In this document: one piece after another, positions 6,081 to 63,461 of the stretch | Numbering within the stretch: position 1 is the stretch's first letter | Layout of the letters: each line of letters starts with the position of its first letter | DNA from: a virus | Direction: 5' to 3' (one strand) | IMG/VR virus record: IMGVR_UViG_3300032223_003493 | Coordinates: 1-64,000 of that record | DNA length: 64,000 nt | The notes under the pieces: model-generated | What the model was told of the DNA's origin: nothing | What the model saw: the letters and a program-made list of their open reading frames with translations, nothing else | Databases searched by the model: none | Program-made: the position numbers and the translations under genes

Positions 6081-6087
6081 AATATAA

Positions 6088-6597
6088 TTATCTTAAGAAT
6101 TGTGAATTTATATCTCTTTCTGACAAAATAGGATCATCAATACCCCAATCAATGTTTATTGTAGGATCTTTCCAATTTACTGAAAATTGTTGATCAACAT
6201 CAGGATAAGAGCCTTCATAACTCCATTTGTAATAAAACACTGCACTTTCACTTAAAACCAAATGTCCCGTTAAAAAATTAGGAGGTACTATCAAACTTTG
6301 CTTTATTGGACTACTACTATCAAGAGTGAAAATTTGCCACTTCAAATATTGATCAGAATCTTTTCTAAAATCTACAACAGCAAATTTGATTAAACCATGT
6401 ACACAAGAAATATATTTATGAGATTTGCTATCACCATGAAGGCCTCTCAAAACATTTTTCTTAGATACAGCAACCTTATCATGATTGAAGAACAAATCTA
6501 AAGGAAAATTATTTGAATTATAATTTGTCCAAAGATCTCCCCTCAAGTCAGAAAAGCAATCATTTTCAAACACTAAAACATCACGCAAATTATCCAT
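6088..6597 (-). CDS. RmlC-like dTDP-4-dehydrorhamnose 3,5-epimerase family (cupin)
   Basis: The 169-residue cupin has the RmlC hallmarks: LRGLHGD at residues 50-56 with catalytic H54, VPPNFLTGH near 104-112 in place of the usual PxGFAHGF, tyrosines in FYYKWSYEGSY, and the C-terminal IDWGIDDPILSERD. The family inverts C3 and/or C5 of 4-keto-6-deoxy nucleotide sugars. The ATG overlaps the stop of the ColD-like gene by eight bases, so the two are translationally coupled and may act on the same sugar. Members may be 3-, 5- or 3,5-epimerases, or isomerases; the exact reaction is not readable here. Confidence 0.85.
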   Translation of the reverse strand: MDNLRDVLVFENDCFSDLRGDLWTNYNSNNFPLDLFFNHDKVAVSKKNVLRGLHGDSKSHKYISCVHGLIKFAVVDFRKDSDQYLKWQIFTLDSSSPIKQSLIVPPNFLTGHLVLSESAVFYYKWSYEGSYPDVDQQFSVNWKDPTINIDWGIDDPILSERDINSQFLR

Positions 6598-7759: not shown

Positions 7760-7766
7760 ATGAAAC

Positions 7767-8531: not shown

Positions 8532-8532
8532 A

Positions 8533-10065
8533 TTACAACTCTTCTCTTACCAGAGTCCGTGAAATAATTTCTAGCATAGTGTTCTTTGCTATTGCACCAA
8601 ACTTACTTTCAACTTTACTCAAAAATTCAGGGCTTGAATGATAGTCATAAAATGCTTGATCTCTGAACTTGAGAATTTCCATTCTTGAAAGATTTTCATT
8701 GTACATAGGAAGAGTCTTCTTAGATAAGAATCCAAACTTGTCATATGTATCTGGTATTGGAAGTCCCGCATCTAAAGAGTCTTTATAAAGTTTGCTTCCA
8801 GGAAGAGCTATTGCTGGATAAGCATTCCATCCTCTGGTATTGAGTTCTTTCGATAAACTCAACGTAGCTTGCATACTTTCATGAGTATCACCAGGTAGAC
8901 CAAAAATAAAATTTGCCATCACATCAATGTCAGCATCTTCAATTTGTTCTACTACTTTTGTGATATCTACATCTTGAAATTTACCTTTAGAAACTTCAAG
9001 TCTAACATTTCTGTCAAAACTTTCAATTCCTAAACATAGCCATTTGATACCAGCACGTCGAACTAACTCTAACTTTCCAGGATCAGTGACAGTATCTACT
9101 CTTGAGTAAGCCCACATTCGTAGATCTTTACTGTATGTCCTAGCAGCAAGCATTTCACATAATGGAACATAATATTTCTTATTCAACAGAAACATTTCGT
9201 CTACTATACGAATTGTTTGGACACCTAATTCGTTAAGTTTGTCGAACTCTTTGATAATGAATTCTGGTGACCAAAATCTCATCTTTGAATAATTTGAAGC
9301 AACACCGACTTCCTCATTATCATTTCTGTTCAAGATGTTAATCATACAAAATGAACACCCAAATTGGCAACCTAAAGATGTTTGTAATGCAGCGTAAGGT
9401 GTTCTTTTACTTTCATCGTATTCAGCATGCCAAAGAGGTGATCTGTACAAGTCAAGAGGTTTTTCCTTGAATGGAAGTAAATCCCAAGCATATCCAGGTA
9501 AATCAATGTCCATTCTTTCGCTAGGAACAATCTCTTCAGGCTCGTTGAAAATAATTTTGCCATCTTTTCGCCAAGCAATTCCTTTGATGCTTCCTAAATC
9601 ATTAACATCAAGATTTTCAACTTTGAGTAAATTATGAAGAGCATATACTCCTTCATTCATAAAAACAAAGTCGATTGATTCTTCATCAATCAAAGCTTTT
9701 TTTGGGAGTGCCTGAACATATGAGCCAATGTATGCAAGAGGTGTTGATACACCTGAACTCTTAATATATTCTGAGAATTTGACAGCACCACTCATCGATA
9801 CTGTGCCTGCGTTTACATTCTGTCCATAAACAACAAAACAAATTAATTTAGGGCTTAGTTCGTTGATTCGCTTAAGGCCATCTTCTAAGGATAGATTTTC
9901 GGCTAGCATGTCTAAAATGCCCACATTGTATCCAAGAGAGCGACATGATTGTGCCAGTAACAAAGCCCATGTTGGTGTTTCTATAGCGGAAATTTCATCA
10001 GATAAAGATTGATAAATTTCCTTAGCATTACTTGGACTAACAAATAGAACATCTAAATTTTTCAT
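8533..10065 (-). CDS. B12-binding-domain radical SAM enzyme
   Basis: The 510-residue protein has an N-terminal Rossmann-like B12-binding domain (about residues 1-150: DVLFVSPSNA, LGYNVGILDML, AYIGSYVQAL). A radical SAM core follows, with the CxxxCxxC cluster motif at C233, C237 and C240 (LGCQFGCSFCMIN). Later core elements include IRIVDEMFLLNK, WLCLGIESFDRNV and ANFIFGLPGDTHES. The N-domain lacks a clear DxHxxG cobalamin ligand, which is common in this class. Members carry out C- or P-methylation, ring contraction or other radical chemistry. In this cassette a sugar-modifying role is plausible. It is probably the first gene of a leftward transcript through the ColD-like, RmlC-like, kinase and Mpo1-like genes. 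Confidence 0.88.
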   Translation of the reverse strand: MKNLDVLFVSPSNAKEIYQSLSDEISAIETPTWALLLAQSCRSLGYNVGILDMLAENLSLEDGLKRINELSPKLICFVVYGQNVNAGTVSMSGAVKFSEYIKSSGVSTPLAYIGSYVQALPKKALIDEESIDFVFMNEGVYALHNLLKVENLDVNDLGSIKGIAWRKDGKIIFNEPEEIVPSERMDIDLPGYAWDLLPFKEKPLDLYRSPLWHAEYDESKRTPYAALQTSLGCQFGCSFCMINILNRNDNEEVGVASNYSKMRFWSPEFIIKEFDKLNELGVQTIRIVDEMFLLNKKYYVPLCEMLAARTYSKDLRMWAYSRVDTVTDPGKLELVRRAGIKWLCLGIESFDRNVRLEVSKGKFQDVDITKVVEQIEDADIDVMANFIFGLPGDTHESMQATLSLSKELNTRGWNAYPAIALPGSKLYKDSLDAGLPIPDTYDKFGFLSKKTLPMYNENLSRMEILKFRDQAFYDYHSSPEFLSKVESKFGAIAKNTMLEIISRTLVREEL

Positions 10066-45482: not shown

Positions 45483-48400
45483 ATGTCAGATATTGATTTT
45501 ATCGAATATGATAAAATTTCAATTAAGTCAGACGCTTTTATTTCGTCTGATGAATTAAATTGTTATTTTCAATATATACCTTCTACTAAAGCAATTTCTT
45601 ATAATATTAAGAAAGAATTGCATACTGCTGGCACGACTGAAGATCCCAACGACTATAAAGTTCCTGATGTTTCTCAAAAAATTCTTCCAAGAAAACTTTA
45701 TAGAATAAATCCTTTTCACACAAATTATTCTGAAAATTTAGAACTTAATAAAATAAACACTGACCCTGATATTATTTATCCAACTAAAATAAAAGAACAC
45801 AGAGAAAAGATTATAGATTACAGTGCTTTTGGTTTAAATTCAGATCAAATTGAATTTATGATGGCATTACAAAATCTAAGATCCTTGAAAACTGATGAGT
45901 CAATTAAGAAGCTAGATATAGAACAATTTGAAGCTGTAGATGAAAAAGTTATGAATGGCTTTTTTCAAATTTATCCAAGATTTATGGAGATGATGTCTAC
46001 AGGAATTTCAAGTGGTTTTAATCAGTTCTATGAAGATACAGAAACTACTGAATCTATTCATGAAAATGAAGCTTTGATCAATGATAGTTTAAAAAAATTA
46101 GGCCTGAATCCAAGTGAAGTCAGAGTAAAAAAAAAATTTGAAGTAAGATCTGGCAATGCTAATAAAAATGAAGTGAATTCATATCTTCAGGATATTTCAT
46201 TATCAAACAATACTTCTAATAACACAAGATCTATCAACAACAATTCTATCACTAATGTAAATCAATTAAATTTACAAAATAATAATAAAATAGAATTACA
46301 AGTTCGTTCTTCCAAAACTGTCAACAATATTAGAACAGCAAATAATACTGATTTTAATTTCATCAGTAATAATAACAAAACAATAAATCAACAAATAAAT
46401 AATGTAAGCAAATTTTCTGAAGCTACTAAAATTGATTTTGAAAATTTATATAAATCTTTTCTGAAGGACTTGAATATAGCGCCAAATGTTGAAAATCAAT
46501 TCTTCAAAATAGTCAATCAATATAGTAAAAACCTAAGTATTGAGTTTAATAGAATTTTAAATCATTCTGAAAAAACAGTTTATGAAACAAATTTAAAAAA
46601 CTTATCAACATCATATAATTTCTATAGACACATTGAAAATAGATATAGAGAATTTATTCAAAACTTAAATTTCTTCAATGAAACAGTTCAACAAATTAAG
46701 CAAACTGAAGTCAATCTCAAGAATACTTATCAAAATATTCATAGACACAGTGTTACTCATAAAAACAATCATTATAAGAACATTGTCAATCTTACAAAAA
46801 ATGTCAATTATGAATATACTGCCAATGATTATGAATTCCAATATGCTGTTCTTAAAACTATTAAAAACAGTAATCAGTATGTTGAAAATAAAATCACAAA
46901 GATTAAAAATGACCTCAATGTAGCTCAACAAAATATTTCTTTTGTTCATCATAGAATGGTTCACATTCAAGAAAAAACAAGTAATTTTGTGGCAAAAGAG
47001 ATAAAGAATGTTCTCAATAATACAGATTATATTGATGAATATTCAAACATCATTGTCAATAAAATAAGCAATATATCAAACAATCAAACAGTTAGGGCAT
47101 TATTATCATTAGTTACTAACGAAGAGCAACTCAATAGTATTTACACAGTGTTGAGGCAAAGCAATATCAACACTTCTAATATCAAGAATTTAGTAGATGT
47201 TATAAATTATTCTAAAAATAATAATTTGGAAATTACAAAAGTTTCAAGCGCCACAATAGAAAATATCAAGAACTTAGTAAATCTTTCCAAAAATATTGTT
47301 GATTTTAACAACACTGAAAACAAGATAATTCATAATGTTGATAAAAATATTGTTAATAAATTGTCCTCAATAAATGTTAATGAATTCAAATCTTTTGTAA
47401 ATCTTTCAGAATCTAAATCTTTTGTAAATTTTGCCAAAAGCATAAGTAGCATAACCAATCAAGATGTTAATAATTTATTATCATTATCTGCTAATACTAA
47501 CAATATAAAAAATCTTTATTCTTTGTCAAAACACAGCGCAATAGATCTTAATAATATTGAAAATTTATATAAAATAATAAACTTTTCAAAAAATAATAAT
47601 TTCGATATTACAAGAGTTAGTGGATCAACAATAGAGAATATAAATAATTTAGTAAATCTGACAAACAATCAGTTAGTATCAAAGGTTGATCAAAATATTA
47701 TTAATAAAATGTCTTCATCTAATTTCAATGAAGAATTTAAGTCTTTTGTCAATTTATCAGAATCAAAATCTTTCACCAGAATTGCGCAGAGTTATAAGAA
47801 CATTTCAAATATTTTTGAAAATCTGAATACAATTTCTGTTAGCCCTAAATTATCTACAATTTATTTGGATCAGAAAAAGGTAGAAAATCTTAGTGTTATT
47901 CAAAATTTAAGAAATGTTCAGCAAATTAAAGAGTTGTCTCAAATTGTAAATCAATCCAGTACATCTTACATTTTAGAAAAATTATCCAATTTTAATACTG
48001 AAAATATTACAGAAAAAATTAATTTACTTAAGAATATTAATATAACTCAAGATGTCAAGAAAACTGAAAATGTTGTTAGAAAAATAACTAGACTTGCTAG
48101 ATATAACAATGTCAATCAAATTACAGAAAATCTTGATGAAATAACAAATATAGACAAGAATATCAGCACCACTCAATTCAAAACTGAAATACAAAATTTA
48201 AAAAATCTTATCAATATAACTAAAAATGTAGATCAAGTTAATGTAGATAACATTAGTAAAATTGATGTATCCAAGTTAAATAATATAAAAGTTTCACAGT
48301 TCAATTTATTGTTAGATAACATCACTCAACTATCTAAGATAAGTCAGGTAAGAAATCTGACCGAAGAACACTTGGGTGTAATTAAGAAAATTAGTCAAAT

Positions 48401-50129
48401 TCAAAATATAAACCAACTTCAAAATGTTGATCAGAATACAATCCAGAAAATAAATCAACTTCAAAATATAAACCAACTTCAAAATGTTAGTCAATTCACT
48501 ATTAGAAAAGTAAGTGAATTGAAAAATATCGATGAAAATACAATTTTAGCTATCAATCAGATTCAAAATATAGGTCAAGAAAATATTTACAGAATAAGCC
48601 AGATAAAGAATGTTGATCTAAACACAATTCAAGCAATCAATCAAATTCGCAATGTAACTGAGCAGCAAATTAATCTTGTCAAATCTGTAAATCAAATTAG
48701 TGATATTCAAAATGTCTCAAAATTTATAAATCTTACAAATAAGAATGAGATTTCTGATATCAAGTTATCTAACATTAATCAAATTACAGAAGTTGCGCAA
48801 AAAATTTCTAAAATTGAAAATAAAGATTTACTTAATGTTGTGAATTTATCCAAAGTTGTTCAAGAAAGAAGAATCTATAATAGGATATCTAATCTTGTTA
48901 AAAATGTTGAAGTATTGGATACCGTAAATGTCACTCAAGAAACTGCTCAAAATATTTCTAAAATTTCTAATACTAATAATATCAATCAAATTACTAAAGA
49001 TTTAAATTTGATTTCCCAGAACTATCAGGAATTCAAGACAAGCGTTCAGCAAATTAATAAGATTGCGCAAGTTAAGAATGTTGATCAAATAGTAAAGAAT
49101 TTGAATTATGTAAACAATGTAATTCAAGAAAATAATATTGTAAATCGTGTCAGTAAAATTGATCAAAAAGAATTTATCACTGCCATAAATTTGAGCAAAA
49201 ATTATATTCAGTCTTTCAATAGGATTGAAAGTAAGATTAGCAATATTTCTCAGAGACAAAAGATAAGAGAAACACTACAAGATATCAACATTGTAAATAA
49301 TGAGGTCAATAATTCAACTGTCCAAATTACAAACAAAACACAAAAAGTTCAATTGCAAGAATTTATTCAAAATCTCAATTTGCTTGAAACTGAAAAGAAT
49401 ACAACTATCTTGAATCGATATAGTTTTGAGAGTAATAAAAAGAATATTTCAAATCTATTTACTGAACTGAATCTTACGCAACAAATAAAGCAAGAAAAAC
49501 GAACAGAAAGAGAATTTGCCCGTATTTCAAAGCGTTTAGATAGGATGAATAGAGAAACTATCAAAGTCCAAGGCAATTCATATAAAGTTGAACAAAATTT
49601 CTTCGATATGATGAATTTTTACAATGAACAGAAAGTGACAAAAACAAGCAAAGATAGAAAGGTTAATAATTTCTTTCAATTGTTGGAAACACTTAATGTT
49701 CAAAAGACTACTAATGAAAGAAAAATCACTCAAAAAATTCAGAAGATCGAGCAAGTTCAAAACAGAATTGTAAACAATACTTCTCAAATTAAAATTGATG
49801 TTTACAGAGAGAAAAAAGATAATTATTACAAAGTAGACAATCGCCAAACTTTCACTACTAATAATTATCATCAAGAGAAAGAAGAGCAGAAAAAGACAGA
49901 AAAGATAGTTGAAAACAAAGTAGAAGAGTTGCTTGTCAAGAAAATTGAAAATGTAACAAATAATTTAGTGACAAATGTTATCACTAAAAATGAATTTAAT
50001 TCTATCAAAAAAGAAATAATCCAAGAAATCTACAACATAGAAATGAAGACAGAAGAGCGTATTAAAGAGCTACGTAAGGAAACCCAGCAGACTGTACAAA
50101 CTATGTTAGAAAGATTCTTAAGAAGTTAA
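45483..50129 (+). CDS. Giant Asn-rich repeat helical protein, tape-measure or fibre candidate
   Basis: The 1548-residue protein is dominated by Asn, Ile, Lys, Gln and Ser. Residues 1-230 are a non-repetitive acidic head. Residues 230-1330 form an Asn-rich repeat region with hydrophobic residues about every three to four positions, as expected for a long helix or coiled coil. A 125-residue unit is duplicated (from residues 568 and 693), and 14-residue units of the form NVDxNTIQxINQIx recur at about 970-1090. The C-terminus (ERIKELRKETQQTVQTMLER) is a clear coiled coil. Cysteines are absent. A length-setting tail protein or fibre shaft fits best; the two cannot be separated from sequence. Confidence 0.55.
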   Translation: MSDIDFIEYDKISIKSDAFISSDELNCYFQYIPSTKAISYNIKKELHTAGTTEDPNDYKVPDVSQKILPRKLYRINPFHTNYSENLELNKINTDPDIIYPTKIKEHREKIIDYSAFGLNSDQIEFMMALQNLRSLKTDESIKKLDIEQFEAVDEKVMNGFFQIYPRFMEMMSTGISSGFNQFYEDTETTESIHENEALINDSLKKLGLNPSEVRVKKKFEVRSGNANKNEVNSYLQDISLSNNTSNNTRSINNNSITNVNQLNLQNNNKIELQVRSSKTVNNIRTANNTDFNFISNNNKTINQQINNVSKFSEATKIDFENLYKSFLKDLNIAPNVENQFFKIVNQYSKNLSIEFNRILNHSEKTVYETNLKNLSTSYNFYRHIENRYREFIQNLNFFNETVQQIKQTEVNLKNTYQNIHRHSVTHKNNHYKNIVNLTKNVNYEYTANDYEFQYAVLKTIKNSNQYVENKITKIKNDLNVAQQNISFVHHRMVHIQEKTSNFVAKEIKNVLNNTDYIDEYSNIIVNKISNISNNQTVRALLSLVTNEEQLNSIYTVLRQSNINTSNIKNLVDVINYSKNNNLEITKVSSATIENIKNLVNLSKNIVDFNNTENKIIHNVDKNIVNKLSSINVNEFKSFVNLSESKSFVNFAKSISSITNQDVNNLLSLSANTNNIKNLYSLSKHSAIDLNNIENLYKIINFSKNNNFDITRVSGSTIENINNLVNLTNNQLVSKVDQNIINKMSSSNFNEEFKSFVNLSESKSFTRIAQSYKNISNIFENLNTISVSPKLSTIYLDQKKVENLSVIQNLRNVQQIKELSQIVNQSSTSYILEKLSNFNTENITEKINLLKNINITQDVKKTENVVRKITRLARYNNVNQITENLDEITNIDKNISTTQFKTEIQNLKNLINITKNVDQVNVDNISKIDVSKLNNIKVSQFNLLLDNITQLSKISQVRNLTEEHLGVIKKISQIQNINQLQNVDQNTIQKINQLQNINQLQNVSQFTIRKVSELKNIDENTILAINQIQNIGQENIYRISQIKNVDLNTIQAINQIRNVTEQQINLVKSVNQISDIQNVSKFINLTNKNEISDIKLSNINQITEVAQKISKIENKDLLNVVNLSKVVQERRIYNRISNLVKNVEVLDTVNVTQETAQNISKISNTNNINQITKDLNLISQNYQEFKTSVQQINKIAQVKNVDQIVKNLNYVNNVIQENNIVNRVSKIDQKEFITAINLSKNYIQSFNRIESKISNISQRQKIRETLQDINIVNNEVNNSTVQITNKTQKVQLQEFIQNLNLLETEKNTTILNRYSFESNKKNISNLFTELNLTQQIKQEKRTEREFARISKRLDRMNRETIKVQGNSYKVEQNFFDMMNFYNEQKVTKTSKDRKVNNFFQLLETLNVQKTTNERKITQKIQKIEQVQNRIVNNTSQIKIDVYREKKDNYYKVDNRQTFTTNNYHQEKEEQKKTEKIVENKVEELLVKKIENVTNNLVTNVITKNEFNSIKKEIIQEIYNIEMKTEERIKELRKETQQTVQTMLERFLRS
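47184..47800 (+). repeat. 125-codon internal duplication
   Basis: Two units inside the 1548-residue protein, starting at residues 568 and 693, share SKNNN, I-T-K/R-V-S, TIEN, NLVNL and FKSFVNLSESKSF in the same order. The offset is 375 bases. Confidence 0.7.
48401..48488 (+). repeat. Recent 60-bp tandem duplication
   Basis: A 28-base exact repeat occurs at 48401-48428 and 48461-48488 with a 60-base period, i.e. 20 codons. It duplicates a NINQLQNV-type segment in frame. The identity at base level points to recent expansion. Confidence 0.85.
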
Positions 50130-50130
50130 T

Positions 50131-53100
50131 ATGGCCACATATAGGTTAAATGATCCCAGAAATATATCATTTATAGGCAAATTTAAGTTTGACTATGTAG
50201 TTCAACTCGTTAATAAGGGTCAAAAAGGATCAAAAGTTTGGGATGATGCAAATTATATCACAGGAGCTTTTGTTCAATTTCAACGAGGAGAAGAATTTAA
50301 CGCTCAATGTATTATAGCAAATGTTCAACCTGACCAGCCTACTAATGCTGGGTCTTCTTTTTTTACTCATCCTTATGGAGGTAATGGAGGTTTTGGCGGA
50401 ATAGTTGACCCTACCACCTTCAAAAGAGAAATAAAATTTCAATTTTTTATAAAGTCTGGACAATCAGTGCCGTTGAGAGGATACTTTGTTTTAGAAACTC
50501 CATCTCCCCCTACTGATGCTGACTTAAGAGATATGGATGATTTTGGTATAGCAACCAAGTATGTCAGAAATGTAAGTGGCACAGTAGAAGGATATGTTTA
50601 TGAGAATTCGCCCCATAATGAATTTGTAGATATTCAAGAATATTACCCATCTGAAAACTATTTCCAAATTTCACCAGTTTGTCCAGATAATGAAAATGAA
50701 TATTGGCGTGATAAACCTTTAGACGAAAAAACTGTAAGACAATTTCCAAGATACACAACATTAAATTGGTTCGAAATGCCTGATCCAACCAGAAAAGGTA
50801 CTGCTGGAATTGTAATTAGGCAATCAAGTGGTAAAGGTGCATCAAATTACAGAAGAGATATTGTTACAAATTCAGCCTTATTTACTTCATATGAATATAC
50901 TAAAAAATTAAATGCTTGGTCTACAGCTGCCTCAAATTCAGGGTATATAGTAATTGCCTCAAATTTATCAGATGATTCTTACTCTAAAAGTATCAGTATA
51001 TCTTCTGCTAACTGTACTACTGATACTTTTAGTATTAGTTCAAATTCAGATTATATAAATTACAGAGAAGCTAAAATTGATCTTAAAACTGATGCATCCA
51101 GAAAGGTAACTTTCAATTCTGAAATTTATGACTGGAAAAATAATCACTCTGATGAAATAACAGCTTATTTAGTCGGGTTTGGTAGCACAGGGTTGACAGA
51201 GATTTTCGATCAAGGTGTTGGAAAAATAATATACCCAGTACCATCATATAGTGTAGTAAAAACGAAAAGCGGCGTTATCTCAGACTCCCAGGTTTTTAGA
51301 TATTTTGATGGATACATTTCTTTGATAGGACCTGGTGGAGAGAGTAATTCAGCTACGTTATTTTTTGATAATAGACAAAAATGGCTTTTTGGTATGATCG
51401 ATGCTTCATTATCCAAAGAAACGTTTGATGATTTGGAAAGTCCACCCTGCCATTTTGATTACCCAGATTACTATGTTCGATCAGCAGTTGGATGTAGAAA
51501 CTTAAATGAATATAATCAAATACTTACAATTGATGATGAAAAACTACAAGGTTTAACTGGTTCATATTCTTTGATTCCAATTCCCATAAAGGGTTGGAAA
51601 TTTAATGCAATGACTCTTAAACAAGATAAGGATTTCACTATTGAAGGTTCTGGGAATGTTAGAAATTTTACTGGGACAAATGCAGAACCTCATTATTATG
51701 GAGATACCAATTTATCAGGCTACAGATATTTAAATATTGAATTAAGATCCAAAAATAATGATTTGCAAAATGGCAATATTACTATTTACGAAACATCGAA
51801 AGGACCAACTACAAATCAGGATAATACTAATATAAATTTAAAATCTTGGAAAATATCTACTGACTCAAATAATTTCAAAAGTCTAAGAATAGATTTATGT
51901 AATCCAGATAACAAGATTGATTATGTTGATAATCAAGATTCTCCTTATCCAAGACTCAATGTTTACACTACATCTAAACCTCTATCAACAGCACCATTTG
52001 GTTATTTAAGTGTTGAAAACAAACCTACTGATATATTTATTGAAACAAAGCAACAATTAAATGTTTCGTCAAAATTTTGGATTGATGACAAACTCAAATC
52101 CAAAATATCCAATTCTGGATTTGTATATATTACAGATGATAAAACCAAAAATATAGATTATTTCGAAGTTAATACTAAAGCTTTTCCTGGAGCTGGAGTA
52201 GGAACAAACTTAATTTTTGTCAAACCTAGAACATACAACGGAAAGATCAAACTGGCAAAACCTTGGAATAGCAATAATGCCATTTTGCCTGAATATAGGA
52301 AAACTTTATTTTTATATATTGTCAAGAATGATTTGACATCCGGTAAATCTATTGATGATTTGTTAGGCAAAAATAAGCAAAATGAATACCCTGATGAATT
52401 TGAAATTTATGATATGGATCCAGGATATCCAGATATTACTGATAAACTTTCTGTATTGACAAGTGATTTTGTCGATGGACAAACTAGAATTTTTGTCAAT
52501 CCAATTCCTTTATTTGAACAACCAACTGTAATTCCTTATGATGCCATAATTTTAGAAGACTCAGTTAGTAAAAATAAAATAACATATAAATTTGAAAATT
52601 ATGAAAATAACAAAAATGATGGAATTACTTTTATAGATATAAAGCGTAATTCAAGTTTTGATAATAATGTTAAGTTTAAATTAGGCTCAACTTCAGTGAA
52701 ATTAACTTTTTTTAATGGAACTGATGATCAAAAAAGAACAGTTGTAGTAAAATTCAAGTCAGTAGAAAAACAAGGCAATCTTTATAAAGCTACTTTAGAA
52801 TATGCCAAATATGATGCAAATAGTCCGCAAATCACAGATGGTATTCCACTAGAAAGCCCTGATGGTAAAAAATTATATTTTTCAGAAAATGCACCAGTCA
52901 TAACAGTAAACCCCCCTAGACTTGTAGAGTTCACTTTTCCAGTAGACTCAATTTTGCAAACTAGTTTAGTTACAAATACTCCTAGTGGTCCAGAAGTAAA
53001 TGCAATTGATGATTATCCAGAAGACGAAGTTTCAAATGGTCCATATTATGGTGTTTCTAGAATTACTAAAATCGAAATTGATAATGATCAATTAGAACTT

Positions 53101-56100
53101 GGAAAAATTAATTTAACCAGAAATAATTCATTATCAAATTTTGTTATTTCTGGATTGAACAATACTTTTGAATCTCAAACTAAATTTGATGCTTCTTCTA
53201 CAACTACCACAGAGTATTATACCAGAAGATTTTGGCAGCAAAACACTGATGGTAGAGATGAAGAAGAAGGAGACTTAAGCTGGCAACATACAAAATCTGA
53301 AAATGTTGATTATTGGTCAGCTTATCCAAAAACAATTTCGAGTTTATGCGATGATATAAATAAAGTCGATGAATATGTAGCTCCAAGGTGGCTCAATGTA
53401 GCAAATCCTTCATCAAGTGTTATTAGACATCCTGGATGGAAAGCAAATAAAATTACAAAAGCATTTTCAGTTGATCCAATAACAGGAGAGAGAATTTATG
53501 GAAACAATTTAGATCCAGATTATTTGAACTCTGATACTGGATATGCAGCTTGGGTATTCGGTGGTGGAGTAATTGCAATTCCTAGCGGAAAAAATTCTGG
53601 TAGCGGAACATCGTATATAAAAGCTATAGACATAAATTTTAATGATCTAAGGACTATTTTAGCACAAACAGTTTTTCATAGAATAAATGCTGATTTTCCG
53701 CCTGGAAAAAATGATTTGTTTGGAAATACATCTATAATAAACACAGATGGTACTAAAGAAGAATCAACTCTGCATTTAAGAGGAGCATTGATAACTCGAG
53801 GACCAGGATATGGTTTGATATTACCACCACAAGTTAGTACTACTGATAACTTAAGAGAAGCTAATCTGATAGATACTACTGAGCGTAATACTAATTATGG
53901 CAAAGGTCAGTCAGATTCTAAAGGTTATTTTGAAACTGGATCTGCATATGGTAAAAATTCCCATAATAATTACATTGAATTAGAAAAATCGAAAAATTTC
54001 ACAACTCCATCTGATTATAGAAGCTCTACAAGGAAAATGTCTCAAGCAAAAAGAGAAAGAGCTGCTTTCAAAGGAGGCAAACAAAATGTTGCGACAAACC
54101 TTTCGGCTTGTGAATCTGGTTTTGAAAAATCAATTGTAATAGCATATACAGTTCCCACAACAAAAGCTGGCGATGAAAACCAAACTGCAATTATAACCAC
54201 AGATTCATTTTTTACGTCGCAATATGAAAAGTATCCTGTAGGCTATAATACGATTACTGGCTCTGGAGTGACAATAAAAGGTGAATTTCCATTTGTTTTA
54301 GGTTCAGAAACTCATATAAATCATGCTTATAGAGTGAATACATTTTTACTAACAGAAAGAAATTCAAATACAAAAGCTACTAGTTCTCACAATTATGATT
54401 CTTTAATTGCTGCAAATACAGATATGAGGAATAAACTTTCTTGGTTTCCCTTTGTAGAGGGACAAGCCAAGATAGATGCTAATTTTTCAACTCTTGCCAA
54501 AGCATTTACTAACACAAAATACAATTCATACACAGTATCTGATCAATCTCCACAATTATTTAATGTGGGTTATGCAGATCCTGGAGCAATTGTTTTTAGA
54601 TCAATACCTTTAAATTTAGCCAATATAAAAGCTCCAGTTACTGATAAAACTATATTTATTGATGGCGTTGCACCAACTTATACTTCTGATTTTAGATTAT
54701 TAGAACCAATAACTTCCTCAGGTGCAGCTTGTTCATCATTTCCAACAGTAGCTCAAATATCATCAAGAGAATATATAGTTGCTTATTCTTTAAATGCAAC
54801 GCCTAGAAAAATTAATTTCAAGATAATTGCTAACTATCAAGTGCAAGATAAAAACATTTTAATTGATTTGGATGCTCTTACTGGAAATACACTTTCAGAT
54901 AAATATAACATATATGGATTGACTTCAAATTATGATGAAAACTTAGGACTTCATAGATCAATTTTTTGGTGCAATGGTGGAATTTATTATTTTGAATATG
55001 CCTTATCATCAAGCAACATCGGAACAAAAAGAACTGATAAATTACATTTGGTTAAGGGCAAACTTGATGACGATTTAGTAAAAGAATTAAGTAATAGACA
55101 AAATATTATCACTTATTATGATTCAGCTAGTGTTTTAAATGCTGAAGTTCCAAAGCAAAAACCAGCTTTAATTACTTGCCAAAAACAAGAATATAATGGA
55201 AGTGTATTTGTTGCTTACGATACTGGAAAATGCTATATAGAAGCAGTATTATTCCATCCTTATTCACAAATTTTAGGCACGAGAAAGTTTGATATTGAGT
55301 GCGTAAATACATCTGGATCAACATCAACCACTGCATCTCCAATTGCAGACATTCAAGCTAATCCAACTAGTGGACAATCAGCATTACTGGTTAACTTCCT
55401 ATCGAGTAATTCATATGATCCAGGTGGTAGCACACTAACTTATGCTTGGAACTTTGGTGATGGAACTCAATCTTCTGAAGAAAATCCAGTACATACTTTT
55501 GTCAATACTACTGCAAATCCAATAACTTTGACTGTATCTCTTGTAGTCACAAACGCTAGTGGTGTAAGTAGCGATCCAGCAACAATAACAATAACAGTAA
55601 ATCCTGCTCCAATTAATAACCTTTCGCCTCAAGCCAAATTCAATGCAACTCCAACTGCTGGCACCGTTCCATTGATCGTTACTTTTACGGATCAATCAAC
55701 ACCAGCAAATGATGGTTCTGTGATACAAACATACGATTGGGATTTTGGTGATGGTAATACAGCATTAAAACTTGACAATGTATCTTTCACTCACGAATAT
55801 ACGAATGCTGGGACATATGTACCTACTCTTATAATTAAAGATAATTTGGGTAGAGTATCAAGTAAGTTTTATGGCACACCAATAAAAGTAGATGGAACAA
55901 TAAACAATCCGCCATCCCCAAACTTTACCTGGGCTCAAACTTCTTACTCTCCAACTTTGAAAATTCAATTTACAGATACTTCTGTTGATGTTGAAGGTCC
56001 ATTGGTTGCATGGCATTGGGATTTTGGAGATACTCAAACTGCTGATGTTCAAAACCCAGAACATATTTATGCTAATCCAGGTACTTACTCAGTAGTTCTT

Positions 56101-59100
56101 ACAGTAACAGATTCTGGTGGTTTACAAGCTTCAGGAACAAAACAAGTTACAGTTTCGCCTCCTGGAAATAATCCGCCCATTGCAAACTTTAATTATTTGC
56201 AACAAAACAGGAAACTAGTAATAGATTTTGCTGACACATCCATCGATACTGACGGCACAATTGTATCTTGGAGTTGGAGTTTTGGCGATCAAACCACAAG
56301 CATAACAAAAAATCCTTCACATACATATGCCTTGGCTGGAACATATCAAGTCATATTGACAGTAACTGATAATGGTGGAAAAACTGGATCAATAACCAAA
56401 AACGTTGTTGTAAATCCATTAGTAAATCAGCCTCCTGTAATTTCCAATATTACTGGCACACAAACTAGTTTTAAACCATTAATTGGAACATTTTCAGAAA
56501 CATCTTCTGATCCTGATGGTTTTATTACTCAATGGGATTGGAATTTTGGAGATAGTCAGGTTTTTTCCACTACAAATAGTGCACTTAAGAACCCAACACA
56601 CACTTATAACTTTCCAGGATCTTACACTGTTACATTGACTGTTACTGATGATGGTTTGCCCGATGGAACTAGCAAGAAAACAGCAACATCTTCAATTCCA
56701 TTCGTAGTAGCACCACCACCACCTAATATACCTCCTGTCGCACTTTTCACAGTAGACACTAATAATGCATTTGCTCCTTTAACAGTCAACTTTACAGACA
56801 ATTCTACTGACGCTGATGGGAAAATTGTAAGTTGGCTGTGGGAATTTGAAACAGGTAGTACACTATTCTTCAATGCTCAAACTTATCAAAAAACTGTTTC
56901 GCATACATTTACAAAATCAGGAACTTATCCAGTTAAATTAACCGTAACTGATGATGGAAATCTTACAAATTTTTATATATTAAATATTGTTGTGAGAAAT
57001 AATCCTCCAGTATCAATTTTATCTGCATCTCCCAATCCTGTTCTATCGTTGTTGCCAGTTAGTTTCTTTGGCAATAATTCTTATGATATTGATGGAAATA
57101 TAACAAAATACTCTTGGGATTTTGGCGACGGTACAACTATACTTCAAGGTACTACTGCAGAAACACATACATATACAAAACCTGGGACTTACAAAGCATC
57201 ACTTACAGTAATTGATAACTTAGGAGATAGTTCAACTGCTAGTTTGTTTATAAATGTGTCAAACAGAAACCCAGTTGCAAAAATAACTTACACTACTCTA
57301 ACAGTTAAAGCACCTGGAAGTTTAACATTCAATGGGGATACATCTACTGATTTAGACGGAACAATTGTTTCTTACAATTGGACAGTTTCAAATGGATTAA
57401 CTGCTTCAACACCTAATGCTACTTTCAATTTCTCAACGCAAGGTACATTTGCAGTATCTTTAACTGTTACAGATGATTCTGGTGGCACAAATTCAACTAG
57501 TGTCATAGTAACGGTAACACCACCTGACAATATTTTACCTGTAGCTATATTGAACGTAAATAAAAATTCTGGAGTTATCAATGACTCATTCATTTTCAAT
57601 GTGTCAAATTCAAATGATCCTGATGGCTCTATAATTTTATATCAATTAGATTTTGGAGATGGAACTTCAACTCAATTTGTGAATCCTGCACCTATATCTC
57701 ATATATATAAAACAGTTGGTTCATTTACAGCAAAATTAACTGTTACTGATAATAGAAATGGCGTTAGTTTAGAAACAACAAATTCAGTACAAAATATCAC
57801 TATAAATAACCAGCCTCCAATAGCTAATTTCTCATTTAGTCCAATTGGTGCATTTACGTTTGATCTTATTACATTTACAGATAATTCGAGTGATCCTGAA
57901 AATGCATTATCTAAATGGGTCTGGGATTATGGTGATGGAACTAATTTTACAACAAATGATCCTTTGCAAAAAAGTCCAATTAAATCTTACAACAAAGGAA
58001 ATAAAGACTATACTGTATCATTGACAGTTTATGATAATTTTAATTTATCAAGCACAACTTCACAACTAGTGCATATCAATAATAGAAAACCATTTGCTGT
58101 AATTTCAACAAGCAGTACTCCAATAAATAATGTAATTACCGGAATAGCTCCATTTACTGTAATTTTTGATTCTAATTCGTATGATTTAGATGGTACAGTG
58201 ACAAATTATGAATGGTACTTAAATGGACTTGTAGGAACTCCATTTACTACAAAATCATTCACATATACTTTCAACACAGCTTCTTTCACTCCTTATGTAG
58301 TCACTTTAAGAGTGCAAGACGATGATGGTGTTTGGAGTGATTTAGCAAATATAGGAGTCCAAGTTAACGCTCCAAATACTCCTCCAATTGCTGTTATTAA
58401 AGCTAATCCATTGTCAAATACAAGTCAAGCTCCAATTACAGTTAATTTCTCTGGTGCTGGAAGTTATGATCCAGATAACATTAATGGCACTTTGATTTAC
58501 GCATGGGATTTTGGCAATGGTAGTATTTCAAATCAAGTTAACGCAAGCACCACTTATAATAACCCTGGAACATATAAAGTTTCTCTTACCGTTACAGATA
58601 ATTTAGGAGCAACAAATACTGCTACATTAGATTATATTGTTTTGAATAGTAAACCAATAGCAATATTAGATACTGTTCCATCAGGTATAACTCAAGCTCA
58701 AATTAATACGGCAGTTTTATTTACATCTGCTGGAAGTAATGATCCTGATTCTGGTCAATTTATTAATGGGTATAAATGGTTAGTTGATGGAGTGAATCAA
58801 AATTCTAACACTTCAACATTATCCACCTCATTCAGCACTATTGGAAATCATATTGTAACTCTTTCTGTTTTTGATAACTTGGGACTTGAATCTAATCCAG
58901 TTTCAAAGACTATATTTGTTATATCTGCTCCACCTCCACCACCAGTAAACCAAAATCCAATAGCAATACTTGGCAATGAGCCAAGTATTACTGGATATAT
59001 AGAACTTAAAGTTGGAGACACTTTTACATTTGACGGCACTACTTCTTATGACCCTGAAGATGGATCAAATATAACTTTTGAATGGTCAATAGATGGAGTA

Positions 59101-60525
59101 AAGTCTGGATATACTTCAACATTTGTGAATCAGTTCAATGCAATAGGAATATTTACTGTAAGCTTAGTTGTATTTGACACACTAAAATTAGCTTCTACTC
59201 CTGCTACTAATTTAGGAAAAAGATATACTGTAAATGTCAATGTATCTGCTGCACCTAATCCTCTTGCAAATAAATTATTCTCATCAGGTCAAGCACTTAA
59301 TGGAGCGATAGCAAGTGGTAGTAATTCTCCAGACAGATATGGTTTTCAGTTAGTTGATGATACAAAACAATATACAATTATTGAAGCTGGTTTAAATCAT
59401 ACTTTTGTAGTTGATGCAGCAGGGGTACTGTATGCAGCAGGGTCAAATAGTAATGGACAGCTTGGTTTCTCATCTAACATTACTCAATTAAATTCCTTAA
59501 CTGCTGTACCTTTAGCATCCAAATATAAAGTAGTAAAAGTTTCTGCTGGCGATCTTTGCTCAGCTATAATTGCAGATGATACAACTTTGAATAAAAGAGT
59601 ACTATTGGTATGTGGTTCTAATATAAATGGAATTTTTGGACAAGCCTTACCAAGAACAAATATTTATAATTTCCAGCCAATTCTTGAAAGAGCAACAACA
59701 AATAATGGAGCAAGTTATCTTTCAAATAATAGTTTCTTAGATGTTTCTTGTAATTCTTATATCTTGGCATTCACTGACAATAGACAAGTTTGGGTTGCTG
59801 GAAAACATAATTACATCAACAAAACTGGAATAAGCGACACTGGTTTTTTCCCAATCAACATAGATCCAAATCCTGATCTATTATTAGGCAGCATAAATTA
59901 TCTCAATCCGTTTAGATTAGAAGTTGGTTTTAATAATCAATTAGGTTTTGTAACTGGACTTTCGTATGATATTGATAACCAAATAGTGTGGTTTGCAGGT
60001 CTTTCTAGCTTGAGAGGTTGGGGATATGCATACGATATTTCAACTTATGAAAATAGTATTGTAGTAATTACAGCATCACAAGACCCTTTCTTTGATCACG
60101 CAATTTATCTTTACTTCTTCTCTTATAATGAAATACCTCAATTTAATGTTAGTGCTGGTTTGGCAGCTGACTTAAACCCAGGAGAAAATTTCTTGAAAGT
60201 ATCTACAGGGAGATTTGGGTATTTAGCTTTGTCTGAAACTTTATTTTATCCTTACGGCATAAATGACTATGGACAGCTTGGATATGCTCAGTCTATAACG
60301 AGTTCTATTGCTTTGAATAATCAATATAGTTTACCAGGTGGAGTAGTTTTGCCCAATAAAAGTGTTACAGGTATATCTGATATTGCTGCTGGTGGAAATC
60401 ATTCGATAATTTTAGCATCTAATGTAAAGCCATCATCACAATCATTCACAATTACAAAACCTGGTGGATATGCTACAGATCCTCAGTTTCCTACTTCTTA
60501 CCCAATTACACAAATAGCTGGGTAA
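50131..60525 (+). CDS. Giant adhesin: unknown N-region, 14 PKD domains, RCC1-like C-terminal region
   Basis: The 3464-residue protein has a 1735-residue N-terminal region without recognised domains, beta-rich, starting TYRLNDPRNISFIGKFKFDY and likely anchoring it to the virion. Residues about 1736-3040 hold 14 PKD domains, most with the W-x-F-G-D-G turn (YAWNFGDGTQSS, YDWDFGDGNT) and the TYxVxLTVTD strand. PKD 6, 8, 9, 11, 13 and 14 have degenerate turns. Residues about 3045-3440 contain RCC1-like repeats (GSNSNGQLGF, GINDYGQLGY, AAGGNHSIIL), likely a beta-propeller. No signal peptide is present. It starts one base after the previous stop. A long extended tail fibre ending in a propeller is the best reading. 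Confidence 0.72.
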   Translation: MATYRLNDPRNISFIGKFKFDYVVQLVNKGQKGSKVWDDANYITGAFVQFQRGEEFNAQCIIANVQPDQPTNAGSSFFTHPYGGNGGFGGIVDPTTFKREIKFQFFIKSGQSVPLRGYFVLETPSPPTDADLRDMDDFGIATKYVRNVSGTVEGYVYENSPHNEFVDIQEYYPSENYFQISPVCPDNENEYWRDKPLDEKTVRQFPRYTTLNWFEMPDPTRKGTAGIVIRQSSGKGASNYRRDIVTNSALFTSYEYTKKLNAWSTAASNSGYIVIASNLSDDSYSKSISISSANCTTDTFSISSNSDYINYREAKIDLKTDASRKVTFNSEIYDWKNNHSDEITAYLVGFGSTGLTEIFDQGVGKIIYPVPSYSVVKTKSGVISDSQVFRYFDGYISLIGPGGESNSATLFFDNRQKWLFGMIDASLSKETFDDLESPPCHFDYPDYYVRSAVGCRNLNEYNQILTIDDEKLQGLTGSYSLIPIPIKGWKFNAMTLKQDKDFTIEGSGNVRNFTGTNAEPHYYGDTNLSGYRYLNIELRSKNNDLQNGNITIYETSKGPTTNQDNTNINLKSWKISTDSNNFKSLRIDLCNPDNKIDYVDNQDSPYPRLNVYTTSKPLSTAPFGYLSVENKPTDIFIETKQQLNVSSKFWIDDKLKSKISNSGFVYITDDKTKNIDYFEVNTKAFPGAGVGTNLIFVKPRTYNGKIKLAKPWNSNNAILPEYRKTLFLYIVKNDLTSGKSIDDLLGKNKQNEYPDEFEIYDMDPGYPDITDKLSVLTSDFVDGQTRIFVNPIPLFEQPTVIPYDAIILEDSVSKNKITYKFENYENNKNDGITFIDIKRNSSFDNNVKFKLGSTSVKLTFFNGTDDQKRTVVVKFKSVEKQGNLYKATLEYAKYDANSPQITDGIPLESPDGKKLYFSENAPVITVNPPRLVEFTFPVDSILQTSLVTNTPSGPEVNAIDDYPEDEVSNGPYYGVSRITKIEIDNDQLELGKINLTRNNSLSNFVISGLNNTFESQTKFDASSTTTTEYYTRRFWQQNTDGRDEEEGDLSWQHTKSENVDYWSAYPKTISSLCDDINKVDEYVAPRWLNVANPSSSVIRHPGWKANKITKAFSVDPITGERIYGNNLDPDYLNSDTGYAAWVFGGGVIAIPSGKNSGSGTSYIKAIDINFNDLRTILAQTVFHRINADFPPGKNDLFGNTSIINTDGTKEESTLHLRGALITRGPGYGLILPPQVSTTDNLREANLIDTTERNTNYGKGQSDSKGYFETGSAYGKNSHNNYIELEKSKNFTTPSDYRSSTRKMSQAKRERAAFKGGKQNVATNLSACESGFEKSIVIAYTVPTTKAGDENQTAIITTDSFFTSQYEKYPVGYNTITGSGVTIKGEFPFVLGSETHINHAYRVNTFLLTERNSNTKATSSHNYDSLIAANTDMRNKLSWFPFVEGQAKIDANFSTLAKAFTNTKYNSYTVSDQSPQLFNVGYADPGAIVFRSIPLNLANIKAPVTDKTIFIDGVAPTYTSDFRLLEPITSSGAACSSFPTVAQISSREYIVAYSLNATPRKINFKIIANYQVQDKNILIDLDALTGNTLSDKYNIYGLTSNYDENLGLHRSIFWCNGGIYYFEYALSSSNIGTKRTDKLHLVKGKLDDDLVKELSNRQNIITYYDSASVLNAEVPKQKPALITCQKQEYNGSVFVAYDTGKCYIEAVLFHPYSQILGTRKFDIECVNTSGSTSTTASPIADIQANPTSGQSALLVNFLSSNSYDPGGSTLTYAWNFGDGTQSSEENPVHTFVNTTANPITLTVSLVVTNASGVSSDPATITITVNPAPINNLSPQAKFNATPTAGTVPLIVTFTDQSTPANDGSVIQTYDWDFGDGNTALKLDNVSFTHEYTNAGTYVPTLIIKDNLGRVSSKFYGTPIKVDGTINNPPSPNFTWAQTSYSPTLKIQFTDTSVDVEGPLVAWHWDFGDTQTADVQNPEHIYANPGTYSVVLTVTDSGGLQASGTKQVTVSPPGNNPPIANFNYLQQNRKLVIDFADTSIDTDGTIVSWSWSFGDQTTSITKNPSHTYALAGTYQVILTVTDNGGKTGSITKNVVVNPLVNQPPVISNITGTQTSFKPLIGTFSETSSDPDGFITQWDWNFGDSQVFSTTNSALKNPTHTYNFPGSYTVTLTVTDDGLPDGTSKKTATSSIPFVVAPPPPNIPPVALFTVDTNNAFAPLTVNFTDNSTDADGKIVSWLWEFETGSTLFFNAQTYQKTVSHTFTKSGTYPVKLTVTDDGNLTNFYILNIVVRNNPPVSILSASPNPVLSLLPVSFFGNNSYDIDGNITKYSWDFGDGTTILQGTTAETHTYTKPGTYKASLTVIDNLGDSSTASLFINVSNRNPVAKITYTTLTVKAPGSLTFNGDTSTDLDGTIVSYNWTVSNGLTASTPNATFNFSTQGTFAVSLTVTDDSGGTNSTSVIVTVTPPDNILPVAILNVNKNSGVINDSFIFNVSNSNDPDGSIILYQLDFGDGTSTQFVNPAPISHIYKTVGSFTAKLTVTDNRNGVSLETTNSVQNITINNQPPIANFSFSPIGAFTFDLITFTDNSSDPENALSKWVWDYGDGTNFTTNDPLQKSPIKSYNKGNKDYTVSLTVYDNFNLSSTTSQLVHINNRKPFAVISTSSTPINNVITGIAPFTVIFDSNSYDLDGTVTNYEWYLNGLVGTPFTTKSFTYTFNTASFTPYVVTLRVQDDDGVWSDLANIGVQVNAPNTPPIAVIKANPLSNTSQAPITVNFSGAGSYDPDNINGTLIYAWDFGNGSISNQVNASTTYNNPGTYKVSLTVTDNLGATNTATLDYIVLNSKPIAILDTVPSGITQAQINTAVLFTSAGSNDPDSGQFINGYKWLVDGVNQNSNTSTLSTSFSTIGNHIVTLSVFDNLGLESNPVSKTIFVISAPPPPPVNQNPIAILGNEPSITGYIELKVGDTFTFDGTTSYDPEDGSNITFEWSIDGVKSGYTSTFVNQFNAIGIFTVSLVVFDTLKLASTPATNLGKRYTVNVNVSAAPNPLANKLFSSGQALNGAIASGSNSPDRYGFQLVDDTKQYTIIEAGLNHTFVVDAAGVLYAAGSNSNGQLGFSSNITQLNSLTAVPLASKYKVVKVSAGDLCSAIIADDTTLNKRVLLVCGSNINGIFGQALPRTNIYNFQPILERATTNNGASYLSNNSFLDVSCNSYILAFTDNRQVWVAGKHNYINKTGISDTGFFPINIDPNPDLLLGSINYLNPFRLEVGFNNQLGFVTGLSYDIDNQIVWFAGLSSLRGWGYAYDISTYENSIVVITASQDPFFDHAIYLYFFSYNEIPQFNVSAGLAADLNPGENFLKVSTGRFGYLALSETLFYPYGINDYGQLGYAQSITSSIALNNQYSLPGGVVLPNKSVTGISDIAAGGNHSIILASNVKPSSQSFTITKPGGYATDPQFPTSYPITQIAG
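55336..59256 (+). repeat. Array of 14 PKD domains
   Basis: Counted by eye from the repeated PPxAxF...DxDG...W-x-F-G-D-G...H-x-Y...G-x-Y-x-V-x-L-T-V-x-D pattern, each about 85-100 residues, with linkers such as PPPPNI and PPPPPVNQ. The units are clearly diverged from each other, so the array is old rather than freshly amplified. Confidence 0.85.
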
Positions 60526-60560: not shown

Positions 60561-63461
60561 ATGAACCTTTCCCCAGATCCAAGACAATTAAAAACAAAAG
60601 TCACTTTGAGTATTTTGAATGCTCCAGAAAGTGGTTTCTTTTCTGGAGAATATACTTCATCTACAGCTACAAAATCACAAGATAACTTAAATGTTTTAAA
60701 TTCTGATTTTGAGCCTTATTACACTTATGAAAATGGTGTAACCGAACCTAAATACAGCCAAAGATTAAAAGTTGTATCTTCTTTACAAAATGCAAGAATT
60801 CCTGAACTCAACACTGTAATAAGTGCTTCATCTTGTACTTTTGCTTTTGGTGCAATTGTTCCAGGAGAAGTTGATCCAGTTTTGAATAGACTAAAAGGAC
60901 CTACAATTGGTTATAATCCTAATTTTGTAGATAGTCCATTACAAGGAACTGTCAGCACATCAGATTTCAAATCATATCCTGAAGTGCCCAAAATTCCTTT
61001 CACCGATGTTGGAAATGTTTTAACAACTTATAATATTTGGCAAAAAAAGTCACTTGGTGTTTTTATCTCAGATGATGCATACAAATATATTGGCCCTGCA
61101 ATTAAAAATACTAACACTGGTACCTTGAGAACAGTCAAGGATCCAGTTTATGGAGCACAAGTAGAAGTTACATCTATTCAAGATATTACTCTTGTTGAAA
61201 GAATTTTTCCAACTTCTTTTGATGCTATATATCAAGAAGGTGCTCAAGTTCATAATCCAGATGGCACAAAACAAGATATATTTGCTCGTGGTACAAATGG
61301 TGGAAATAGTTTTCATTTAAATCTTTCATTCTCAAATATGCAAGAAAACTCATCAGCTTTTAGTCTCGGATTAACTTCACCTCGAGATGATAATTATATA
61401 AATAGTTTTCTTTTAGATTTAGAAATTGACAAGAAGCCAATTTTAAAAATATATGATCCAGAACTAAAACAATATATTGTTCAAACTGATATTATAGCTC
61501 CCGTTTTAGATAGGAATAACATGGGTTCTTATGACATATTTGTTCATTTTGTTGGTCCAAATATGATGATTGGTTTTAGCCCCGATATAACAAGATGGAA
61601 TACAATTATTAATTTAAGTGGTAGAGAAGTTTTCTTCTCGCCTAATACTCGTATAGCACTGTCAATCAAGAATTGTAATTTAAAATTTAGATATTCTGCG
61701 TTAATTTTTAATAATTTTAATTATTCTCAATTGCAAACATCTTTATCTGCTAAAAATTATATTACTGCAGAGATAAGGTATTCAAAAGAAAAAATTAAGG
61801 ATTTAGGAAATTTCTTATCAACAATTAACAAATCATTTGAAGATGCTTCATATAGATTAAATAATTCTCCTAAAAATACTGGCTTTAATGACACTGCAAC
61901 TTCAACTAATACTAAAAATCCTATAGATAAAAATATATCATATTTTGCAGATTTACGACTCATTGGCAATCAATTTGAACCAATAACCCAAATTTTTTCA
62001 CCAAAAAATAAAAGTGCTGATCCTGACAAAGTAACAGTTTACTTTAAGATGATTTACAACACTACCATCGAAGGCCCAGCATTTATGCAAGTAGAAGTGC
62101 CTCATCCTGGAGTTTTAGCAGCTGGCGGAGCAGCAGATCTAGGATCAGGAGGAGCTGATGATTATCAATTTTCAAATCCTTTGCTAAATAGCTTGTTTTA
62201 CGATGTTGGAGATATTACATCTTGGGTTGAGACTTGGAATATAAGTTGTCAAGCACAATTATCAAACCTTTCAAAAATAACAAAATCTGCATCAATAACT
62301 TTAAAAAATATTGATTCATTAGAAGGTCAAAAATTCATTAATGCAATCGAAAACAATTTACTAGTTGTGTCCATTGATGCTGGATATGTTACAGGAAGTC
62401 TTCCAACTTTTTTCCAAGGGTTTATTACAAATACAAGTTATTTCAGAAAAGGAAACGATAGTACTTTTACATTAGATTGCACAGATATAGCCTCGTTCGT
62501 TTTGGAAAATCTTTACTTTGATAAAAATATGATGTTAGCTGGAATGAGGCATGATCTAGCTATTGATTCTATTTTAGCTTGTTCTGGATTCTGGTCATAT
62601 TATTCGAGAAATAATTCTGATTTTCAAAATGGTGGATCTATTTATGGTATTGACTTAAGATTAAACAGTAATTCAACAAATAATCAGGATTTAATTAAAT
62701 TGAATCCTCTAGATAAGATTTACGAAAAACTTGGAAGGCTGCTTGAAAGGTTAAACAATCCATATTCTCTACCTACTTTTAGATGGGCAGAAAGATATGG
62801 TTTGAAGCTTGAATGTAGAAATAATTATGTTGATACTGATTTGAAATTTACAGGATTGACCTCTAATGGAAATGCATATAGCTTCAATAGTAATTCTTCA
62901 AATGCAAACTACTTGACAAATTTTCAAACTGATCTTCATGGATTGTTGGTTGATGATTATAGAATTACAACAAATGTTTCTAATCTTTCATCAGGAGTTA
63001 GAGTCTTTGGTGTTGCTATGACTGGTTTTTTAGCTGATGAAAGGTATTCTCCAGATTCCGTTTCAGTGGCTAATCTCCCATTGCAAAAACAAGTTGATCT
63101 TTTGAAATACTTGGCTAACGCACCTTTTGATTCTGCTCAAGCTCCTTATGTTGGATTCAAAAAATATTTAATGTGGTCAATGCAAAGAAACGAAATTCCA
63201 GATCAAGAAGTTTTGAAAAGAATTACTGACAGCGTAGAATTAGTTTCAAAAACACCGATTAGTTCTATTTCATTTCAATGTTATGTTACAAAACCTTTAA
63301 GTTTTCATGGAAAGTTCATTATCAACGTATTTCAAGGCAGCGTTGTAAATGCTACTGATCAATATATTTATCAATCTATTGATTACACATACAATAAAGC
63401 TAATAACTTGATAACAGCTTCTGTCAAAGGAACTAATATGCCAATTTCGTTAGGAGTATAA
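60561..63461 (+). CDS. Baseplate hub-like protein
   Basis: The 966-residue protein has a non-conserved N-terminal part (residues 1-530), then a region resembling tail-hub (gpD/gp44-type) barrels: SWVETWNISCQAQLSNLSKI, SITLKNIDSLEGQKFINAIE, FFQGFITNTSYFRKG, and TFTLDCTDIASFVLENLYFD. The C-terminal part (FHGKFIINVFQGSVVN, YTYNKANNLITASVKGTNMP) ends the way many late-control-type hub proteins do. Acidic and aromatic residues are plentiful. Position after the adhesin and before small baseplate genes fits. The homology is inferred from pattern only. Confidence 0.5.
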   Translation: MNLSPDPRQLKTKVTLSILNAPESGFFSGEYTSSTATKSQDNLNVLNSDFEPYYTYENGVTEPKYSQRLKVVSSLQNARIPELNTVISASSCTFAFGAIVPGEVDPVLNRLKGPTIGYNPNFVDSPLQGTVSTSDFKSYPEVPKIPFTDVGNVLTTYNIWQKKSLGVFISDDAYKYIGPAIKNTNTGTLRTVKDPVYGAQVEVTSIQDITLVERIFPTSFDAIYQEGAQVHNPDGTKQDIFARGTNGGNSFHLNLSFSNMQENSSAFSLGLTSPRDDNYINSFLLDLEIDKKPILKIYDPELKQYIVQTDIIAPVLDRNNMGSYDIFVHFVGPNMMIGFSPDITRWNTIINLSGREVFFSPNTRIALSIKNCNLKFRYSALIFNNFNYSQLQTSLSAKNYITAEIRYSKEKIKDLGNFLSTINKSFEDASYRLNNSPKNTGFNDTATSTNTKNPIDKNISYFADLRLIGNQFEPITQIFSPKNKSADPDKVTVYFKMIYNTTIEGPAFMQVEVPHPGVLAAGGAADLGSGGADDYQFSNPLLNSLFYDVGDITSWVETWNISCQAQLSNLSKITKSASITLKNIDSLEGQKFINAIENNLLVVSIDAGYVTGSLPTFFQGFITNTSYFRKGNDSTFTLDCTDIASFVLENLYFDKNMMLAGMRHDLAIDSILACSGFWSYYSRNNSDFQNGGSIYGIDLRLNSNSTNNQDLIKLNPLDKIYEKLGRLLERLNNPYSLPTFRWAERYGLKLECRNNYVDTDLKFTGLTSNGNAYSFNSNSSNANYLTNFQTDLHGLLVDDYRITTNVSNLSSGVRVFGVAMTGFLADERYSPDSVSVANLPLQKQVDLLKYLANAPFDSAQAPYVGFKKYLMWSMQRNEIPDQEVLKRITDSVELVSKTPISSISFQCYVTKPLSFHGKFIINVFQGSVVNATDQYIYQSIDYTYNKANNLITASVKGTNMPISLGV

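Follow-up and report, generated by a model that had tools for sequence, protein, structure and literature searches.

A giant phage tail-module protein with an exchangeable N-terminal cassette, a conserved core and a constant array of 14 PKD domains followed by an RCC1-like propeller

The window, a stretch of 64,000 nucleotides taken from an 82.9-kb virus record (IMGVR_UViG_3300032223_003493), carries at positions 50131-60525 (+ strand) the complete gene of a giant tail-module protein of 3464 residues, which we regard with moderate confidence as a composite tail-tip adhesin made of a swappable N-terminal module, a conserved core, a constant PKD stalk and a propeller. The frame starts with ATG and contains no stop codon, and since dN/dS ranges from 0.07 to 0.18 in each segment among three close relatives (L010, L011 and L023), the gene is real and not a chance frame; on these sequence comparisons, the selection acting on it is strongly purifying. 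All segments being on the + strand, the protein begins with an exchangeable cassette and proposed specificity module (residues 1-480, 50131-51570), delimited by identity, a break in DNA similarity and hhalign, and continues with part A of a conserved core (residues 481-615, 51571-51975), recognized by alignment with short PKD-free proteins, an insert found only in the long form (residues 616-953, 51976-52989), which is a gap in all aligned short relatives, and part B of the core (residues 954-1330, 52990-54120), which carries the motif YYTRRFWQQNTDGRDEEEGD and is defined by its identity to short and long relatives. A connecting region of no known fold, strongly conserved among the long-form proteins (residues 1331-1734, 54121-55332), leads to 14 tandem PKD (Ig-like) domains (residues 1735-3029, 55333-59217) and to the RCC1-like propeller domain (residues 3036-3464, 59236-60522). 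A 3464-residue frame with a PKD array and an RCC1-like C-terminus had already been described in a sequence-only reading of this DNA, and is confirmed here by the open reading frame, Pfam and a profile built from the protein itself. The interpretation attached to it, however, stands only in part: the PKD array, the RCC1-like end, the tail setting and the absence of isolate relatives hold, but the N-terminal virion anchor does not.

The PKD array was recognized by Pfam PKD_4 in 14 stretches (552.7 bits, whole-protein E 4.2e-170), passing the curated PKD cut-off, and the profile built from the giant protein likewise returned 14 domains, spaced 86-101 residues apart, so that the exact count given earlier is borne out by both. 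Seven further long-form proteins were found (L009, L010, L011, L023, L025, L035 and L069), all sharing this layout; that of L009 is truncated at the contig end and the six complete ones measure 3461-3479 residues. The self-built profile found 14 PKD domains in each of the seven, and the count is thus invariant in eight of eight long proteins. Between the window and L069, PKD domains at equal positions are on average 56% identical and those at unequal positions 34%, with the ortholog ranking first at 11 of the 14 positions; the array is therefore old and fixed, orthologous positions being closer than paralogous ones. L069, which is the outgroup in the PKD array (about 55%), sits on a contig of 358 kb (IMGVR_UViG_3300027759_006101), for which reason the carriers of the long form are probably a family of jumbo phages.

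The C-terminus was assigned to the RCC1-like propellers by several routes. RCC1 (PF00415) scores 38.7 bits in two stretches, against a curated cut-off of 21.7, while the WD40_RLD (RCC1-like domain) profile reaches 77.5 bits, under its curated cut-off of 150. Sequence profiles match the last 429 residues to the known propeller structures RPGR (E 5e-16), UVR8 and RCC1. AlphaFold modelled residues 2840-3464 with moderate quality (mean pLDDT 62, poor in the last 40 residues), and the best matches of this model in the PDB, as searched with Foldseek, are the full-length RCC1-like propellers of HERC2, RPGR, RCC1 and UVR8 (best E 3.2e-13), with about 390-415 columns aligned and a TM-score by target of 0.57. 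The fold and the recognizable repeats of residues ~3040-3460 accordingly resemble those of the RCC1, HERC2 RLD, RPGR and UVR8 propellers, and the whole domain may form seven blades, although the fold alignments are only about 15% identical and no evidence was found for nucleotide-exchange or DNA-binding roles in the domain of the giant protein. Residues 3036-3270 are 78-86% identical in six of the seven long relatives, and the RCC1 "tip" is mostly conserved and not variable. It is not wholly constant, since identity drops to 45-62% over its last ~190 residues in L025, L035 and L069, where they form a second, smaller variable zone.

The distribution of variation along the protein is opposite to that expected of a classical fibre. 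In the usual phage fibre the N-terminus is conserved and the C-terminus variable. Here, conservation is lowest in residues 1-480, where the window and every long relative are 35-39% identical; identity rises to 66-73% in residues 954-1330 and, in six of the seven relatives, to 72-86% over residues 1331-3270 (50-57% for L069); within the latter, the connecting region alone gives 72-85% for the same six and 50% for L069. The same holds among pairs, which are mostly 32-39% identical in residues 1-480 and mostly 70-89% in residues 1331-3270. Between the window and L011, dN drops from 0.66 over residues 1-480 to 0.10-0.14 over residues 1331-3464, whereas dS in both segments falls in a range from about 0.8 to 1.35. 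At the DNA level, similarity of 81-89% continues through the last part of the preceding gene and is lost at codons 2-4 of the giant gene in six of seven comparisons, the exception being L025, in which it is lost at codon 23; past the break only short matches are found, until continuous similarity resumes between residues 483 and 1027. The change of the cassette looks like allele replacement, because dN/dS by segment stays below 0.2 among close relatives. In addition, L035 and L069 are 54% identical in residues 1-480, where closer pairs reach 32-39%, even though their PKD arrays share only about 55%, and this common N-terminal allele favours replacement over uniformly fast evolution.

The region before the PKD array had been said to hold no recognizable domain. 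No Pfam family exceeds its own cut-off over residues 1-1734, as stated, yet the region does have relatives, since counterparts of residues 205-615 and 954-1329 occur in PKD-free proteins 970-1034 residues long, which smaller environmental phages encode on shorter contigs, mostly of 12-57 kb. Core part B is 28-34% identical to these proteins (E down to 3e-41), and by hhalign (prob 96, E 4e-9) residues 6-425 of the giant protein are homologous almost end to end to residues 4-353 of the short family. The giant protein and the short family (for example L036, L046, L055 and A0A6J7WIV8) thus have a homologous cassette and core and a tape-measure-like gene nearby, a 510-aa gene beside the short-family gene giving a tape-measure match. 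They differ in that the short proteins have neither the insert of 340 residues nor a PKD array or propeller, and end in a region weakly like BNR repeats in L018; moreover, the long form has its core gene ahead of the hub gene, and the short form has it beside tape-measure-like genes. A 750-aa protein of the small phages, suspected by eye to be a homologue of the 966-aa hub of the window, found no support in hhalign (prob 0.3). In the fold search recommended earlier for the N-terminal region, a core model of moderate confidence (pLDDT 65) found as its best match in BFVD the uncharacterized 970-aa phage protein A0A6J7WIV8 (E 1.5e-24), but no solved structure in the PDB resembles the core or the cassette, and none was found for the connecting region. 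PDB matches of the core to CDTb, the Sf11 tail and the JBD30 baseplate were set aside (prob 0.30 or less, small TM-scores). Bacterial genomes yielded no relatives of the core.

Two members of the short family record a natural exchange. The DNA of L046 and L055 is 94.5% identical over 7.8 kb as far as the ninth base of the core-protein gene; then comes a stretch of about 1.1 kb without a match, after which identity returns, at 94.7% over 6.3 kb. The difference thus covers roughly the first 370 codons; in the core protein the first 355 residues are 38-41% identical and the remainder 88-99%, while the two proteins encoded directly upstream are 99.4-99.8% identical. For its N-terminal segment, the closer counterparts of L055 are instead L047 and L054 (79-92% identity), both far less similar to it elsewhere, and its cassette DNA matches that of L047 at 81.5% over 941 bases. 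A second gene differs between L046 and L055, encoding a 679-aa putative spike (from the 5' end to about 1750 in L046, 1115-3154 in L055) with a variable N-terminal and a conserved C-terminal part; by eye the N-terminal part looks like a beta-helix spike, which Pfam did not confirm.

These results bear directly on the earlier proposal that residues 1-1735 are a new virion anchor. Its first 480 residues are the least conserved and allelic, with the break at the start codon, and about residues 480-1330 are homologous to the PKD-free phage proteins; an anchor role for residues 1-480 is not supported, given the conservation pattern together with allele exchange. Given the low identity, the break at the start codon and the L046/L055 swap, the N-terminus behaves as an exchangeable cassette, and the scaffold is to be sought in the middle, which PKD-free proteins have in common with it. 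A classical fibre, with an N-terminal virion anchor, a PKD spacer and an RCC1-like receptor-binding tip, is consequently an unlikely description of the protein. The domain order does fit, PKD arrays serve as spacers and the last ~190 residues vary in three relatives, but the supposed anchor would be the least conserved part of the gene, it is swapped in L046/L055 while adjoining tail proteins remain 99% identical, and the propeller is highly conserved up to residue 3270 in all relatives except one.

The gene lies among tail genes. Upstream, on the same strand, are an 897-aa tape-measure-like gene (42126-44819), with weak matches only (phrog_167, E 1.8e-4; phrog_4200, E 5e-4), a 214-aa gene and a 1548-aa gene (45483-50129) whose Asn-rich product is probably a coiled coil; downstream follow a 966-aa baseplate-hub-like gene (60561-63461, + strand, PHROG 196, matched by six of the six members tested) and more large genes. 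This placement between tape-measure-like and hub genes is kept in the relatives, and from it a position of the giant protein at the tail tip of the virion is inferred. The 1548-aa protein is about 240 residues longer in the window than in relatives (1294-1324 residues) and its gene contains short tandem repeats at 48396-48485; a role as length ruler is possible. Its last ~295 residues are 93-96% identical in L023 and L025, reaching the break point. No match to the contractile sheath family PF04984 was obtained in ten records, with which a divergent sheath is still compatible, nor did a search for the terminase PF03237 give a match. Further adhesins are possible in the downstream tail module of L013, where a 505-aa gene (3701-5218) has an SWM repeat and a 1299-aa gene (5208-9107) a PA14 domain. 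Elsewhere in the window, positions 2238-24749 hold on both strands a large sugar-synthesis cluster, with two DegT aminotransferases, NeuB, TPP enzymes, transketolase halves, several epimerases/dehydratases, a PfkB kinase, a glycosyltransferase and a radical SAM/B12 protein, which could serve host-surface remodelling or virion glycosylation.

The main rival to our interpretation is that the cassette is an adaptor which co-varies with another variable virion protein, such as the spike or the tape-measure-like protein, and does not bind the host. The upstream genes are indeed variable as well. Between the window and its relatives, identity is mostly 91-94% in head-side genes (82-95% in one small gene), 78-90% in several tail genes further downstream and 68-73% in the hub (about 50% in L069), whereas the 897-aa and 1548-aa genes of most long relatives are at 50-66%, and the 679-aa putative spike differs in L046/L055 along with the cassette. 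In L069 the upstream and hub genes, at 36-50%, are far more diverged than in the other relatives. Against an adaptor, identity between L009 and the window falls from 78% (897-aa gene) and 82% (214-aa gene) to just 35% over the cassette, the two genes directly upstream of the core gene are nearly invariant in L046/L055, and the constant part of the spike is its C-terminal half, which leaves no obvious variable partner surface. We therefore consider an adaptor improbable.

The earlier reading knew of no common phage fibre with this domain order, and in a tblastn search of 50,697 INPHARED phage records neither the N-terminal half nor the hub nor the short core had a match. The propeller part gave a single weak match, covering 20% of the domain, to an "RCC1 domain-containing protein" of Clostridioides phage LIBA6276 (MF547662, E 9e-3). 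LR756511, a 595-kb uncultured phage, and MT835675 were discarded as relatives, as they match the PKD part only; in LR756511 the match (557303-557812) lies in a module of much smaller genes. In the collection of papers searched, none was found joining PKD domain, RCC1 and phage, and the "PKD" of PMC11823257 is a pyocin knob and irrelevant. RCC1-like domains are encoded by the jumbo coliphages phAPEC6 (eleven) and GAP32 (Gp1), for which their authors guess at DNA ordering; unlike the giant protein, no PKD array or core homology is reported for them in the passages of that paper that describe them (PMC7247149). PKD/Ig-like domains are also found in T4 Hoc and gut-phage adhesins, but Hoc is capsid-bound and has two PKD domains and one further Ig-like domain where the giant protein has 14 PKD domains, and the descriptions of these proteins in the two sources mention no RCC1-like domain (PMC13370021, PMC11821841). 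Since such proteins, Hoc included, mediate mucus or epithelial adherence (PMC13370021), the PKD array and propeller might form a general surface adhesin for mucus or polysaccharide that concentrates phages near their hosts, with which the conserved C-terminal half and the variable cassette agree. Unlike a Hoc-like capsid decoration, however, the giant gene is placed in the tail-tip module between tape-measure-like and hub genes, away from capsid genes, and its product has no family match in PHROG, hence none to a capsid-decoration family. As an explanation in its own right we hold a general adhesin to be very improbable; it is compatible with a composite tail-tip adhesin and not its opposite.

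According to the composite model that we prefer, the middle of the protein (about residues 480-1330) would be a scaffold that probably holds it in the tail tip, and the first ~480 residues would be a binding module setting specificity, presumably towards the host, replaced when phages recombine, one crossover falling at the start codon. The long form would have gained the insert and the connecting region, along with a fixed-length stalk and its propeller. If extended, at about 4 nm per Ig-like domain, the 14 PKD domains might span perhaps 55-60 nm, although the array could be compact, and the stalk would present the RCC1-like propeller, probably to a more constant partner. The constant number of domains suggests selection on arm length itself. 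More tentatively, and with less confidence than we give to the composite model, we may hypothesize a double-ended adhesin of inverted polarity, anchored in the middle, whose N-terminus would be a host-range cassette exchanged at the start codon in large and small phages alike, and whose fixed PKD-RCC1 arm would grip a conserved surface feature. If true, the start codon would be a place at which phages generally recombine to switch hosts. The L046/L055 pair, which over ~14 kb differs mainly in the cassette and one gene, makes the host-range determinant directly testable. Receptor-binding proteins are usually sought through a conserved N-terminus and a variable C-terminus; since the variation sits at the opposite end in two separate phage groups, conventional searches would pick the wrong domain.
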